A stretch of 38,914 nucleotides of DNA from Pseudobdellovibrionaceae bacterium (GTDB lineage Bacteria; Bdellovibrionota; Bdellovibrionia; Bdellovibrionales; UBA1609). The DNA lies in NCBI GenBank assembly GCA_025354795.1, contig JANXMF010000207.1:1-38914 (forward strand), written 5' to 3'. The position numbers and the translations under genes were made by a program. Positions within the stretch are counted from its first letter, which is position 1. Each line of letters begins with the position of its first letter. Below are positions 8,478 through 13,780 of this stretch, piece by piece. The notes under the pieces are model-generated. The model saw only the letters and a program-made list of their open reading frames with translations. It had not been told where the DNA came from and ran no database searches.

Positions 8478-8484
8478 GTGAAAA

Positions 8485-8537: not shown

Positions 8538-9911
8538 ATGACACCAACACTCGGCCAGCAATTGCGCAATTCCAAAGAAATCAATTCGCAGCTAGACAAT
8601 TTAGTTGAACAGGTCCTTGCCGTGAGCAGCAAGATTAGCGGTGTTCGGCCAGCGGATCCGGGGCACGAGCCACAGTCCAGCGACGATGTCAAAGCGATCG
8701 GGGGGTTGCGTGGCCGTCCGTTATTTTACAACTATGTGGGCTCCGGGGCCGGGCGCGGTCCGTATGTGGAATTGGAAGATGGCAGCGTTAAACTGGATTT
8801 GATTAATGGGATCGGAATTCATTTGTTCGGCCACGCGCACCCGCGGGTGATTCGCGCCACTTTGAAAGGCGCCACGTTCGATATTTTGCAGCAGGGGAAT
8901 TTGCAGCCGAATGTGGAGTATCGCCAATTCAGTGAAAAACTAGCCAGCCTCGTGCGCCGCAACAGCCGTTTGCAATACGTGTGGCTCGCCACTTGTGGCA
9001 CCATCGCCAATGAAAACGCACTTAAGATCTCGCGCCAAAAAAAGCGTGGCGCACGCATGATCGTGACCTTCAAAAATGCCTTTGCCGGGCGCTCCACCAT
9101 GATGGCGGAAATCACCGACAATCCGACTTTCAAGGTGGGCATGCCCGACTACAACGAAGTTTTGCGTTTGCCCTTTTATAGCTCGCAGGTACCGATGGAC
9201 AAAACCCTAGCGGTGTTCAAAGAGCACGTGGAGAAATATCAGGATAAAATTTGTTGTTTCGTGTTTGAACCCATGCTTGGCGAAGGCGGCTACCGCGCGG
9301 CCCCGCGTGAGTTTTTTGTGCCCCTGCTCGAGTTTTGTAAGGAGCAGGCCATTCCGGTGTGGGCCGACGAAATTCAAACCTTCACTCGCACCGGCAACTT
9401 TTTTGCCTATGAAACTTTAGGAATCGGGCAATACATCGACGTTTGCACCATCGCCAAGACCGCGCAAGTCGGCGCGACTTTTTACACCGAAGACTTTAAA
9501 CCCGATGCCGGCTTGCTGGGTGGAACATTCTCCGGCTCCACCCCGGCACTCTGCGCGGGTCATGAAATTTTAACGATGATGGATGAGGACGGTTACCTCG
9601 GTCCCCATGGCAAAGTGATGCAGATCCATCACGGCTTTGTAAAAATGCTCAATCAACTGAACGAAACCACATGCAAAGACCAGCTGGTCGAAGCCGGGGG
9701 CCTCGGATTGATGGTCGCCGTAACTCCGCTCGACGGCAGCAAAGAAAAACAATTGGCGCTGCTCAAGACATTATTCAAAAATGGCCTGATTTGCTTTGGC
9801 TGCGGCAGCGAACCCTATCGGATCCGTTTTTTACTGCCGGCGGTCTTAACCACGGCGGATATCGACGTCGCCAAAGATATCATCGAGAAATCCATTCGGG
9901 AGTTGAGTTGA
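8538..9911 (+). CDS. Class III aminotransferase, AstC-like
   Basis: PLP-dependent aminotransferase of 457 residues. PLP contacts are visible: CGTIANENALKISR, FAGRSTM, the aspartate in WADEIQTFTRTGNF (Asp277), and the likely Schiff-base lysine 307 in TIAKTAQVGATF, followed by GGTFSGSTPALCAG. The context with AstA and AstD suggests it transaminates an N-succinylated diamino acid such as succinylornithine. It is about 50 residues longer than classical AstC and shares features of lysine 6-aminotransferases, so the exact substrate is open. ATG 8538 has AAAGGAA correctly spaced; the GTG at 8478 would cover the promoter. The stop overlaps the next gene's TTG start. Confidence 0.82.
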   Translation: MTPTLGQQLRNSKEINSQLDNLVEQVLAVSSKISGVRPADPGHEPQSSDDVKAIGGLRGRPLFYNYVGSGAGRGPYVELEDGSVKLDLINGIGIHLFGHAHPRVIRATLKGATFDILQQGNLQPNVEYRQFSEKLASLVRRNSRLQYVWLATCGTIANENALKISRQKKRGARMIVTFKNAFAGRSTMMAEITDNPTFKVGMPDYNEVLRLPFYSSQVPMDKTLAVFKEHVEKYQDKICCFVFEPMLGEGGYRAAPREFFVPLLEFCKEQAIPVWADEIQTFTRTGNFFAYETLGIGQYIDVCTIAKTAQVGATFYTEDFKPDAGLLGGTFSGSTPALCAGHEILTMMDEDGYLGPHGKVMQIHHGFVKMLNQLNETTCKDQLVEAGGLGLMVAVTPLDGSKEKQLALLKTLFKNGLICFGCGSEPYRIRFLLPAVLTTADIDVAKDIIEKSIRELS

Positions 9912-11248
9912 ATCATTTCTTGTCCGCGTGCCGGCATTTCGTGGGGCTGGAGAGCACCCCTAGCCACGGCAATATGGCTGTGGCGGAATATGCGGGCAAG
10001 CTGTGCGAAGAAGCGGGCTTAAGCGTCGACTACCAGCCGGAGTCCCTCGAAGGCGTTAGCCAATGCAATGTGATCGCGCGTCCCCAGGCGGCAATGCCCG
10101 CCGATGAAATTCTATTTCAAACCCACTTGGATACGGTCGAGGCCGGGCATTTCACGCACTGGACCATGACCCAAAGCAATCCATTCAACGCTAGTATTTA
10201 TAACGATCTGATGTACGGATTAGGCACGGCTGACGTGAAACTGGATTTTCTGTGCAAGCTCGAAGCCATGCGTGCGTTTGTCGGAAAACCTCTGCGCACG
10301 CCCTTTGTGTTGGTCGGAACTTTTGGTGCGCAAAGCGGAATGAGCGGCGCGATCAAGTTGATTCGGCGTAAAAAGATAAATGCAAGGCGCGCGGTGGTCG
10401 GCGAACCCACCGAAATGAAATTGGTGGTGGCGGGTAAAGGTCTTGCCGTGGTGGAGATCGCTGTCCCGTTTTCCGAGCAGGAGATGGCGTATCGCCGCGA
10501 TCATGACTTGCTCGAATCCAGTTCGACTCAGAGTCGTCTTTTTTCCGGCAAGGCCAGTGCGGAAGGTGTCGGCAATGAAAACGCCATTATGAAGATGTTT
10601 GCTTACTTGGCTCAGCTTCCGGACGGCATCGCGCTGATGGATCTCGACGGTGGTATTGGCCATGGCTCAATGCCGATGAGCGCGGTCTTAGAAATCGATA
10701 CCGTCGCGGGCTTTCAAGACCCAATCTTGCCTAAGATTTCACGCATTTATGAAAGTATGAAAGTTTTGGAGCGTGAGCTGCAAGAGTTTCGCGAAGAAGG
10801 CTTTGACCCGCCTTATCCGACGGTCAATTTAGGCATGGTGCGCACCTCAGCGAGCGAGGTCCGAATCACCGGCAGTTGCCGCATGCCACCGACCGTAACT
10901 GACGCCGTTTACGAAGGGTGGATGAAAAAATTGGAGCATGCGGTGCAGGCTGTGGGAGCAACATTTCGCGTCAAAGACTATCGAAAAGGCTTTACCTCAG
11001 ACGCAAACAGCGAGTTTGTGCAGACGGCGCGCGGAATTCTAGTCAATATGGGTTTAGGCGCCGAATTGCATAAGACCTCAGAGCCTACCGAGGCGAGTGT
11101 TCTCAGTCGCTTGGGCATGGAGTGCCTGGTGTGGGGTCCGGGGCAAAGTGTCGGAAATTCCCACGCGCCCAATGAAAGTGTTAAAGTCAGCGATCTGCAG
11201 ACGGCCACGGAGTTTTATAAACGATTGATTGAAAGGTTCTGTGTGTGA
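9908..11248 (+). CDS. M20-family deacylase homologue with altered catalytic residues
   Basis: 446-residue protein of the ArgE/DapE/M20 fold. Start TTG 9908 overlaps the upstream stop (TTGA) and has GGGAG at 9898-9902. Metal-site residues are visible: His73 and Asp75 (HLDTV), Asp109 (GLGTADVK), Glu166 (GEPTE) and His419 (GNSHAPNE). But the DEE that holds the catalytic base and bridging ligand in the family is Gly140-Ala141-Gln142 (GTFGAQSGMSGA), and the AHKG histidine is Gly (AGKG). By position it could be the desuccinylase of the succinylated pathway in place of AstE; with these changes it may be inactive or do other chemistry. Confidence 0.78.
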   Translation: MNHFLSACRHFVGLESTPSHGNMAVAEYAGKLCEEAGLSVDYQPESLEGVSQCNVIARPQAAMPADEILFQTHLDTVEAGHFTHWTMTQSNPFNASIYNDLMYGLGTADVKLDFLCKLEAMRAFVGKPLRTPFVLVGTFGAQSGMSGAIKLIRRKKINARRAVVGEPTEMKLVVAGKGLAVVEIAVPFSEQEMAYRRDHDLLESSSTQSRLFSGKASAEGVGNENAIMKMFAYLAQLPDGIALMDLDGGIGHGSMPMSAVLEIDTVAGFQDPILPKISRIYESMKVLERELQEFREEGFDPPYPTVNLGMVRTSASEVRITGSCRMPPTVTDAVYEGWMKKLEHAVQAVGATFRVKDYRKGFTSDANSEFVQTARGILVNMGLGAELHKTSEPTEASVLSRLGMECLVWGPGQSVGNSHAPNESVKVSDLQTATEFYKRLIERFCV

Positions 11249-12258
11249 GCTTTCTAGTGCGCGCGGCTTCGCGTGATGACCTCCAACAACTCTACGAATT
11301 GGCGCGCCAATTCACGCTGCTCAATTTACCCGCGGAAAAGCGGATTATCGAAACCAAGGTCGAGCGCAGTATGGCGTCGTTTGCCGGTGAATTAGGCAAG
11401 AACGAGGCCGAATACATATTCGTGGTGGAAGACAGCGAAGGCCAAATGGTGGCCGGCAGTTCAATGATCTTGGCCAAGAACGGCACCCCCACTTCGCCCA
11501 ATTTTAGTTTTAAGGTTTTAAAAAAAGAGCGTTTTAGCCGCGAGCTCGGCGTCGGCTTTATCCATCAGATTCTGCGCCTGAACACCAACATCGATGGACC
11601 CACCGAAGTTGGCGGTTTGGTGGTGGACCGCGCTTACCGCCGTCGGCCAGAAAAAGTCGGGCGCATGATCAGCCTCAGCCGCTTTATTTACATCGGCATG
11701 GAGCCCAAGCGCTTTGCCGAGGAACTCCATTCGGAAATGGCGCCGCCTTTGAGTGAAGAGGGCCGCAGCGAATTTTGGGAGGCGCTTGGCCGTCGCTTTA
11801 CCGGCATGCCGTACACCGAGGCCGATCAGATCAGCAGTCAAAACAATGGCTTCATTCAAAGTTTGTTTCCCGAGGAAGATATTTACCTGGCGCTGCTCGA
11901 TTCGAAAGCCCGATTGGTCTTGGGACGCGTGGCGGAAGAGACCCAGGCGGCGCTGCATCTGCTCAACCGTATCGGCTTTAAATACAAAGATGAGGTCGAC
12001 CCCTTCGACGGCGGTCCGCATTTGGGTTGTAAGACTCAAGAGTGCACTCTGATCAAAAATTTGCGGTCCTATAAACTTAAAAAACTAAAAAGTGGTCAGT
12101 TTGAACACTCGGGCCTGTTCGGACTCTCGCGTGACGGGTCCTATGTAGGTTCCGCGAGTTCGTATCGCATCGAGGGCCACGAGATCGTCCTGCCTGAAAA
12201 AACCTGGGTCCTAATGAATATGAGCGAAGGCGAAGAGATCTTTCTTTCCCCACTCTAG
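11245..12258 (+). CDS. astA: Arginine/ornithine N-succinyltransferase AstA
   Basis: Succinyl-CoA-dependent acyltransferase of the GNAT-like AstA family, 337 residues, similar to the usual 340. Family signatures: VGGLVVDRAYRRRPEKVGRM with following SLSRFIYI, SEFWEALGRRFTGMPYTEAD, and IGFKYKDEVDPFDGGPHL. It catalyses the first step of the arginine succinyltransferase pathway; some members prefer ornithine. The GTG start overlaps the upstream stop in a GTGA junction, with AAAGG eight bases before it. It is followed 13 bases later by astD. Confidence 0.9.
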   Translation: MSFLVRAASRDDLQQLYELARQFTLLNLPAEKRIIETKVERSMASFAGELGKNEAEYIFVVEDSEGQMVAGSSMILAKNGTPTSPNFSFKVLKKERFSRELGVGFIHQILRLNTNIDGPTEVGGLVVDRAYRRRPEKVGRMISLSRFIYIGMEPKRFAEELHSEMAPPLSEEGRSEFWEALGRRFTGMPYTEADQISSQNNGFIQSLFPEEDIYLALLDSKARLVLGRVAEETQAALHLLNRIGFKYKDEVDPFDGGPHLGCKTQECTLIKNLRSYKLKKLKSGQFEHSGLFGLSRDGSYVGSASSYRIEGHEIVLPEKTWVLMNMSEGEEIFLSPL

Positions 12259-12271
12259 GGAGGAGTACCTG

Positions 12272-13780
12272 ATGAAGACTTTAAGATTCCGTGGCGATTT
12301 TATTAACAATCACTGGTTGCTGAGCGAAAACGGCGACGATGAATGGACCGTGCAATCACCCGCTGATCTCAAGGACGTGGTGGTACGCGCTGGCGCCAAA
12401 TATGAACATGTGGAAAAAGCGGTGGAGGCGGCGCGCGCGGCATACCTTCCTTGGGCACACTTGGGGCTTGAAAAACGCAAACAATATTTGCAGCGCTTAA
12501 AAGAAGTCTTTATCACCAAAGCCCCCGAACTCGCTGAGATCATCGCCCGCGAAACCGGTAAGCCACTGTGGGAATCGAAAACCGAAGCCGCCGCCATGGC
12601 CAGCAAGATCGACATTACCCTCGCTCACTCCCTCAAGCTGGTGGCCGAGGAAGAAGTCAAAGATGCTCTGCCTGGAGTCAATGGCTACATTCGTTTCAAG
12701 CCGCGGGGAGTGATGGCGGTGGTCGGCCCCTTCAATTTTCCCGCGCATTTGCCCAATGGCCATATTATTCCTGCTTTGATCGCGGGCAACACCGTGGTGT
12801 TTAAACCTTCCGACAAAGCTCCCGGGGTCGGGCAGTGGATGGCTGAAGCCTATGCCTCCGCCGACTTTCCGCTCGGAGTATTCAATTTGGTGCAAGGCCG
12901 AATCGAAGTCGGTAAGCGTTTGGTCATGCACGAGTCGGTCGACGGGGTGCTGTTCACCGGTTCCTACGAGGTCGGGCTGAAAATAAAGCAAGACACGCTC
13001 ACGCACTTTTGGAAAATTCTGGTGTTGGAAATGGGCGGCAAGAACGCCACCGTGGTATGGGACGACGCCGATTTAAAAAAGGCGGTGTATGAGAGTTTGA
13101 TCGGCGCATTCATGACCGCGGGTCAGCGCTGCTCGTGCACTAGCCGCATCATACTCCACCCCGCCATTAAGGATCAGTTTATTGATCAGTTCTACGCCGG
13201 CGCCAAGAAACTAAAGATCGGCCACTGGCGCGACAACGCGTTTATGGGCCCCCTGATCAGCGCCGATTCCGTGGAAAAGTTTGTGCGTTACCAAGAGATC
13301 GCCAAACGCGAAGGGGCGGAAAGCCTCATGCGCGGCAAGGCCTTGAGTCTCGAAAACGAGGGCTATTACGTTACGCCATCGATCAATATCGTTCCCGCCT
13401 TTGAGCCCAAATCGGTTTATCAAAAGAGTGAAATTTTTGGCCCAAACGTGGCGATGTTCACAACGGATTCGTTTGAGCAGGCTTTGGCCATTAATAATTC
13501 CTCGGGTTTCGGTTTGGTGATGAGCCTGTTCACTAAAAACCGCGCGCTCTACGAGAAAGCTTTGATTGAAGCGCAGGTGGGTCAACTCAATCTCAACCGC
13601 ACCACCAATGGCGCTAGTTCCAAATTACCCTTTGGCGGTATGAACAAGTCGGGCAATGATCGCGCCTCCGCGCATTTCGCTATTCAGTATTGCACAGTGC
13701 CGGTGGCGAGCCTTGAAGATCCGGGTCCCTTTACCGGCGCCAATATGCCGCCGGGGCTGAACTTCGAAGTGAAGGACTAA
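12272..13780 (+). CDS. astD: Succinylglutamate-semialdehyde dehydrogenase AstD
   Basis: NAD(P)-dependent aldehyde dehydrogenase, 502 residues. Family features in order: GPFNFPAHLPNGHIIPALIA, the cofactor-binding VVFKPSDKAP, FTGSYEVG, active-site Glu253 in LEMGGKN, and catalytic Cys287 in GQRCSCTSR. The AHLPNGHI stretch is characteristic of AstD among aldehyde dehydrogenases. It would oxidise N-succinylglutamate semialdehyde formed by the AstC-like enzyme. It has the strongest ribosome-binding site of the operon, GGAGGAG before ATG 12272. Confidence 0.92.
   Translation: MKTLRFRGDFINNHWLLSENGDDEWTVQSPADLKDVVVRAGAKYEHVEKAVEAARAAYLPWAHLGLEKRKQYLQRLKEVFITKAPELAEIIARETGKPLWESKTEAAAMASKIDITLAHSLKLVAEEEVKDALPGVNGYIRFKPRGVMAVVGPFNFPAHLPNGHIIPALIAGNTVVFKPSDKAPGVGQWMAEAYASADFPLGVFNLVQGRIEVGKRLVMHESVDGVLFTGSYEVGLKIKQDTLTHFWKILVLEMGGKNATVVWDDADLKKAVYESLIGAFMTAGQRCSCTSRIILHPAIKDQFIDQFYAGAKKLKIGHWRDNAFMGPLISADSVEKFVRYQEIAKREGAESLMRGKALSLENEGYYVTPSINIVPAFEPKSVYQKSEIFGPNVAMFTTDSFEQALAINNSSGFGLVMSLFTKNRALYEKALIEAQVGQLNLNRTTNGASSKLPFGGMNKSGNDRASAHFAIQYCTVPVASLEDPGPFTGANMPPGLNFEVKD

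Follow-up and report, generated by a model that had tools for sequence, protein, structure and literature searches.

An M20 deacylase homologue without its general base in the ast cluster of a Pseudobdellovibrionaceae bacterium: a candidate pseudo-desuccinylase formed in place

Why would an arginine/ornithine succinyltransferase (ast) cluster keep an M20 deacylase homologue that has lost the glutamate expected to activate the catalytic water? The question is raised by a 38,914-nucleotide stretch of DNA from a Pseudobdellovibrionaceae bacterium (the window, by which we mean the whole stretch analysed). M20 enzymes, AST clusters and metallopeptidase pseudoenzymes are already known kinds, and a literature search of partial coverage returned no paper on an inactive M20 protein within an ast cluster. 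The answer developed below is that the window protein is probably a binding or helper protein and not a working hydrolase. The cluster comprises four genes:

8538–9911, forward strand: astC-like class III aminotransferase (PF00202, 2.3e-49), immediately upstream of the M20 gene at almost every locus
9908–11248, forward strand: M20 deacylase homologue without the general base, 446 amino acids (PF01546, 8.9e-21; alignment with ArgE; AlphaFold; Foldseek)
11245–12258, forward strand: astA, with a GTG start overlapping the M20 stop (PF04958, 4.8e-91)
12272–13780, forward strand: astD-like dehydrogenase (PF00171, 2e-118; PRK09457, 460.6 bits, below the cut-off of 514)

The start of the astC-like gene was set at the ATG at 8538, in a frame that is open from a GTG at 8478. 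In the reading of the open reading frames, the M20 homologue begins with a TTG at 9908 that overlaps the astC stop and ends with the stop codon at 11246–11248, which the astA start overlaps in turn; with frames overlapping on both sides, the tight coupling to astA/astC-like genes claimed in the preliminary description is borne out. The genes for AstA, AstC and AstD occur together at this locus by family-level profile matches, and, because all three score below their NCBIfam equivalog cut-offs, the substrates of the cluster have to be deduced. The central protein matches the M20 profile well above threshold (PF01546, 75 bits against a cut-off of 24.6) and is confidently predicted to adopt a two-domain fold (AlphaFold pLDDT 92.9), with ArgE/DapE proteins as the top Foldseek matches. 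Its nearest solved relative, by sequence and by fold, is Escherichia coli ArgE (7rsf, 8uw6; Foldseek E 2e-27, TM-score 0.78 by target length), with which it shares the fold, the Zn1 ligands and the positions of D109 and H419, whereas it differs from ArgE in the replacement of Glu144 by Ala and of Glu145 by Gln, in the absence of the lid His and in its location in an ast cluster. The ArgE models do not claim it as an equivalog, since it scores 125–144 bits against cut-offs of 298–460 (144 against 297.7 for TIGR01892).

In ArgE, Zn1 is bound by H80, D112 and E169, and Zn2 by D112, E145 and H355 (PMC11270798). Set against this scheme, the active-site features of the window protein are as follows:

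10124–10132, forward strand: H73-x-D75 motif, kept, with H73 a Zn1 ligand (alignments with ArgE and relatives)
10232–10234, forward strand: D109, the bridging zinc ligand, kept (ArgE alignment and ligand numbering)
10325–10333, forward strand: G140-A141-Q142 in place of DEE/GEE, with loss of the general-base Glu and the Zn2-ligand Glu
10403–10405, forward strand: E166, a Zn1 ligand, kept (ArgE alignment and ligand numbering)
10544–10579, forward strand: lid loop SGKASAEGVGNE, corresponding to GKAAHSSxPxxGE in relatives, with the lid His deleted in frame (alignment of relatives)
11162–11164, forward strand: H419, a Zn2 ligand, kept (ArgE alignment and ligand numbering)

HMMER aligns the window protein with ArgE 7rsf without a gap over the motif (lvgTFGAQSGMSGA against ilATADEETSMAGA), in agreement with the placement of GAQ, residues 140–142, that had been made by eye; an intact EE nearby, which a corrected alignment might have supplied, was ruled out, as the only EE pairs lie at 34 and 296. 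A141 thus occupies the position of the general base E144 and Q142 that of the Zn2 ligand E145. The loss of the base had been read correctly, but the residue replaced by Gln is not the metal-bridging one: that role belongs to Asp109, which is kept, and the lost Glu serves Zn2 only. Nor does Gly140 belong to the loss, because nearly all intact relatives have Gly at the position of the D of DEE, and the Gly at the His of "AHKG" is not diagnostic, since most intact Bdellovibrionales enzymes likewise have Gly or Ala there. Lys177 of the corresponding AKG is present in all the intact and outgroup rows compared and variable in the clade described below, and the window protein has it. ArgE numbering and the alignment of relatives agree that His73, Asp75, Asp109, Glu166 and His419 remain. 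The Zn1 site is accordingly complete (H73, D109, E166), and the Zn2 site has D109 and H419, with Gln142 for Glu. What the preliminary description had missed is a second lesion, in the lid, where the window protein reads GKA--SAEG against GKAAHSS in relatives and has Gly for Asn253, along with the decay and gene loss in other lineages of the window's family. Judged by what an active M20 enzyme carries, the protein has the Zn1 ligands and lacks the Zn2 Glu, the general-base Glu and the lid His. The general-base Glu is considered indispensable to M20 enzymes, and the conserved lid His is described as part of the oxyanion hole (PMC10699109); in a related M20 enzyme, replacing the lid His by Ala left almost no activity (Lindner et al., as cited in PMC4012986).

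An orthologue group sharing GAQ, which had been proposed as a check, was found. The group, hereafter the Ala clade, consists of 12 sequences from one family of Bdellovibrionales, uncultured relatives of Bdellovibrio, all 12 with Ala at the base position; the motif is GAQ in eight, GAE in two, GAH in one and GAF in one. Twenty-five rows of this family form a single branch of the M20 tree with support 95, a branch that excludes the fast-evolving G018, whose position is unsure, G025 having been omitted as incomplete. When the tree is built from the adjacent AstC, AstA and AstD proteins, without any M20 data, the 12 Ala rows amount to one change (support 74). Grouping the other 11 Ala rows to the exclusion of G013, the GAF member, was rejected (AU p 1.8e-5), because G013 belongs among them. 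The five ligand columns are invariant in all 11 of the Ala-clade rows compared and the lid His is present in 10 of these; G013, the twelfth member, keeps the ligand motifs and has lost the lid His, which leaves it in 10 of 12. Only three positions (14, 141 and 154) show a fixed difference between the Ala clade and the intact set, and the alignment of the two contains no newly fixed Asp, Glu, His or Cys in the Ala clade, so that no compensating acidic residue appears to have become established there. At columns conserved in intact enzymes (n = 116), the window protein deviates 20 times, most of the Ala clade 11–18, G013 22 and decayed rows 19–41; the extra deviations of the window protein fall within the lid loop, which G013 lost independently. 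Judged by these residues, with the lid His and Asn253 gone, the window's species has eroded further.

Is such a protein under constraint, or on its way out? As a descriptive measure, we divided M20 distances by AstC distances over identical, non-independent pairs and took medians, which gave 1.24 for the Ala clade (8 loci), 1.51 for intact enzymes and 2.35 for other members of the window's family; here, as in the comparison of ligand columns, G013 was counted with the other family members. These values argue that the Ala clade is not relaxed and that the other family members are. Within the genus, the M20 distances of the window protein relative to AstC are no larger than those of its congeners, and dN/dS, where defined, is 0.06–0.07, with dS near saturation. 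As far as sequences can tell, catalytic residues have been lost here while the gene appears to be held by purifying selection, the combination that marks a pseudoenzyme. The kept but changed function suggested at the outset is therefore supported by the existence of the GA[Q/E/H/F] group, its invariant ligands and its rate of 1.24 against 1.51, but the different nucleophile or base offered with it is not, as no acidic residue, His or Cys has been fixed.

Elsewhere in the window's family no orthologue examined has the intact residue set, and the other members have lost ligands too, with ligand columns 28–94% conserved (G013 included). Decayed M20 proteins also occur in three further families of the order, namely f2 (G036, G044, G049), f6 (G040) and f9 (G043). 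In five genomes (G027, G037, G041, G047 and G052) the M20 gene is absent and astC adjoins astA; a clean astC-astA-astD arrangement without M20 is seen at loci L131–L137, in these five genomes and in G020 and G033. The converse arrangement exists as well: in G018, G029, G039 and G046 (L039, L035, L030 and L031) astA is cleanly gone from between M20 and astD while astC, M20 and astD stay, and the M20 protein has GEE in G039 and G046 and is decayed in G018 and G029. Separately, in a Bdellovibrio CG10 metagenome-assembled genome (L093:2067-3418), a frameshift follows the GEE of M20 and one frame contains 11 stops, which may reflect a fault in the assembly.

Of 59 genomes sampled from the whole order, 44 have an orthologue of the M20 protein. 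Its gene immediately follows astC in almost every Bdellovibrionales locus examined and, if astA is present, immediately precedes astA. Most lineages outside the window's family have an intact GEE in the same astC-M20-astA-astD cluster, and Bdellovibrio, B. bacteriovorus strain kdesi included, has an intact GEE site; the Bdellovibrio orthologues (kdesi, L100) resemble the window protein in this gene order, in identity of about 50% and in the ligands but, unlike it, have GEE, the lid His and Asn253. Distant relatives occur in other phyla (Deltaproteobacteria, Myxococcales, Omnitrophota, Thermoleophilia, Actinomycetota), mostly beside astA and/or astD, although for L117 and L126 no ast neighbour was detected. 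HxD, D, (G/A)EE, E, the lid His and His are retained in almost all of these relatives. An intact GEE with the same neighbours in Bdellovibrio and in outgroups from other phyla implies that the active form is ancestral. At six loci from other phyla (L115, L120, L122, L124, L128 and L130) the order is M20-astA-astD, with no astC neighbour detected, and these clusters suggest a wider AST variant with an M20 desuccinylase.

The remaining enzymes of the pathway are unevenly distributed. AstB was found in 12 of the 59 genomes and strong AstE-like genes in eight; AstE, a member of an unrelated, M14-like family, is presumed to catalyse the same step as the M20 homologue. Neither occurs in the 13 intact (GEE) genomes, and AstB occurs in one of 11 Ala-clade genomes, none of which has a strong AstE-like gene, whereas AstB, AstE or both were found in 15 of the 31 genomes in which M20 is decayed, or is absent with astA present (Fisher p 0.0015 against intact and 0.03 against the Ala clade, uncorrected for kinship). 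In these surroundings the Ala clade resembles the intact clade, which argues that the protein still matters and cautions against regarding it as simply dead. The window's own genome, 94% complete, has no AstB, no clear AstE and no other M20 protein, a DapE-type one included; its two distant PF24827 matches resemble MpaA-type and DUF2817 proteins. AstE was rejected as a general replacement, since it is present in some decayed or M20-less lineages and absent from the Ala clade. Divergent AstE-like proteins of Bdellovibrionales (L047–L050), well below the TIGR03242 cut-off, were seen mainly in genomes with a decayed or absent M20. An M14 gene beside dapD was likewise rejected as a replacement: being nearly universal in the genomes searched, intact ones included, it cannot explain the difference. 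In the window's genome this MpaA-like gene overlaps the dapD start by 4 bases (L188:269-1767, contig C209), and close relatives of it occur in 57 of the order's 59 genomes; it may encode the succinyl-diaminopimelate desuccinylase that is missing.

We propose the following scenario. The ancestor would have been an active M20 N-acyl-amino-acid deacylase, most likely, to go by gene order, an N-succinylglutamate desuccinylase that had been set within the ornithine/arginine succinyltransferase cluster in the place of AstE. In the ancestor of the clade, the water-activating Glu would have changed to Ala and, in most members, the Zn2-ligand Glu to Gln, His or Phe, whereby hydrolysis, to judge from what the water-activating Glu does in M20 enzymes (PMC10699109), would have been lost or nearly so. 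Purifying selection then appears to have preserved the Zn1 site together with H419 and Arg325, as well as the lid His and Asn253 in the majority of members. The resulting protein would bind one zinc and succinyl intermediates and, made in step with AstC and AstA through the overlapping stops and starts, could serve as a subunit, sensor or scaffold for those intermediates. With the ancestral activity presumably gone and the Zn1 site apparently under selection, a one-zinc, ligand-binding pseudo-desuccinylase is the reading that we favour, and we give about even credence to the Ala-clade protein being constrained and non-hydrolytic in this sense. A one-metal binding protein fits the residues kept, and a putative regulatory-subunit role fits as well. 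Two observations restrain this reading: G018 and G029 keep a decayed M20 without astA, so that a role with AstA alone cannot be general, and lid residues are starting to disappear from the window protein and from G013. There are precedents among metallopeptidase pseudoenzymes, such as Ecm14 (M14), where, according to PMC11266112, the general-base Glu is replaced and zinc ligands are kept, as here; the passages of that review consulted describe no M20 case, and the window gene is single-copy at a fixed position and not an extra paralogue.

The same erosion could mean that the desuccinylase is unneeded in the window's family and that the gene persists mainly through translational coupling to astA, losing residues stepwise until it is deleted. 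The faster, ligand-losing relatives, the five genomes in which astC adjoins astA and the independent damage to the lid in the window protein and G013 are all as such a relic would have it. We nonetheless think it unlikely, because the Ala-clade ligands are invariant and the rate is not raised, because the window protein has diverged, relative to AstC, no further than its congeners and because G018 and G029 retain the gene with no astA to be coupled to.

Since Ala-clade genomes have no strong AstE-like gene and, in all but one, no AstB, either the final step must be carried out by some protein or the pathway itself is different, and for want of a clear replacement desuccinylase in these genomes residual or altered catalysis has to be weighed. 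The Ala-clade protein might still be a catalyst, through residual hydrolysis by zinc-bound water, substrate-assisted hydrolysis or acyl transfer to an amine. The complete Zn1 site, Arg325 and the lid His in 10 of 11 rows would suit such chemistry, as would the lack of any other M20 protein in the window's genome, and there is a crystal structure of ArgE itself in which Zn1 is the sole zinc site occupied (PMC11270798). However, the base that the clade lacks is regarded as essential in M20 enzymes (PMC10699109), no newly fixed acidic residue stands in for it, and the window protein is without the lid His too; a changed mechanism thus strikes us as doubtful, and rather improbable on the whole.

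The acetyl cycle is made cyclic by ArgJ, which offers a model for a cyclic AST pathway. By analogy, loss of the water-activating Glu could have turned the Ala-clade protein into a succinyl transferase acting from N-succinylglutamate to ornithine; if true, this would explain the missing desuccinylase in Ala-clade genomes, but we hold it to be very unlikely. Finally, an assembly or sequencing error, conceivable in a draft genome of 243 contigs that is 94% complete, is hardly credible, being refuted for GAQ by its presence in seven other assembled genomes and contradicted by an open frame and a lid change that is itself in frame.

The observations on the candidate pseudo-desuccinylase have implications beyond this locus. 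They suggest that, in Bdellovibrio and various bacteria besides, the succinyl pathway ends with an M20 protein and not with AstE. At one fixed genomic position, with no sign of duplication, the whole path can be seen from an active enzyme, through a base-less form with conserved ligands, to ligand loss and gene deletion. This makes the family a natural series in which the origin of pseudoenzymes in place, and the non-catalytic jobs that a metabolic enzyme can keep, can be put to the test.
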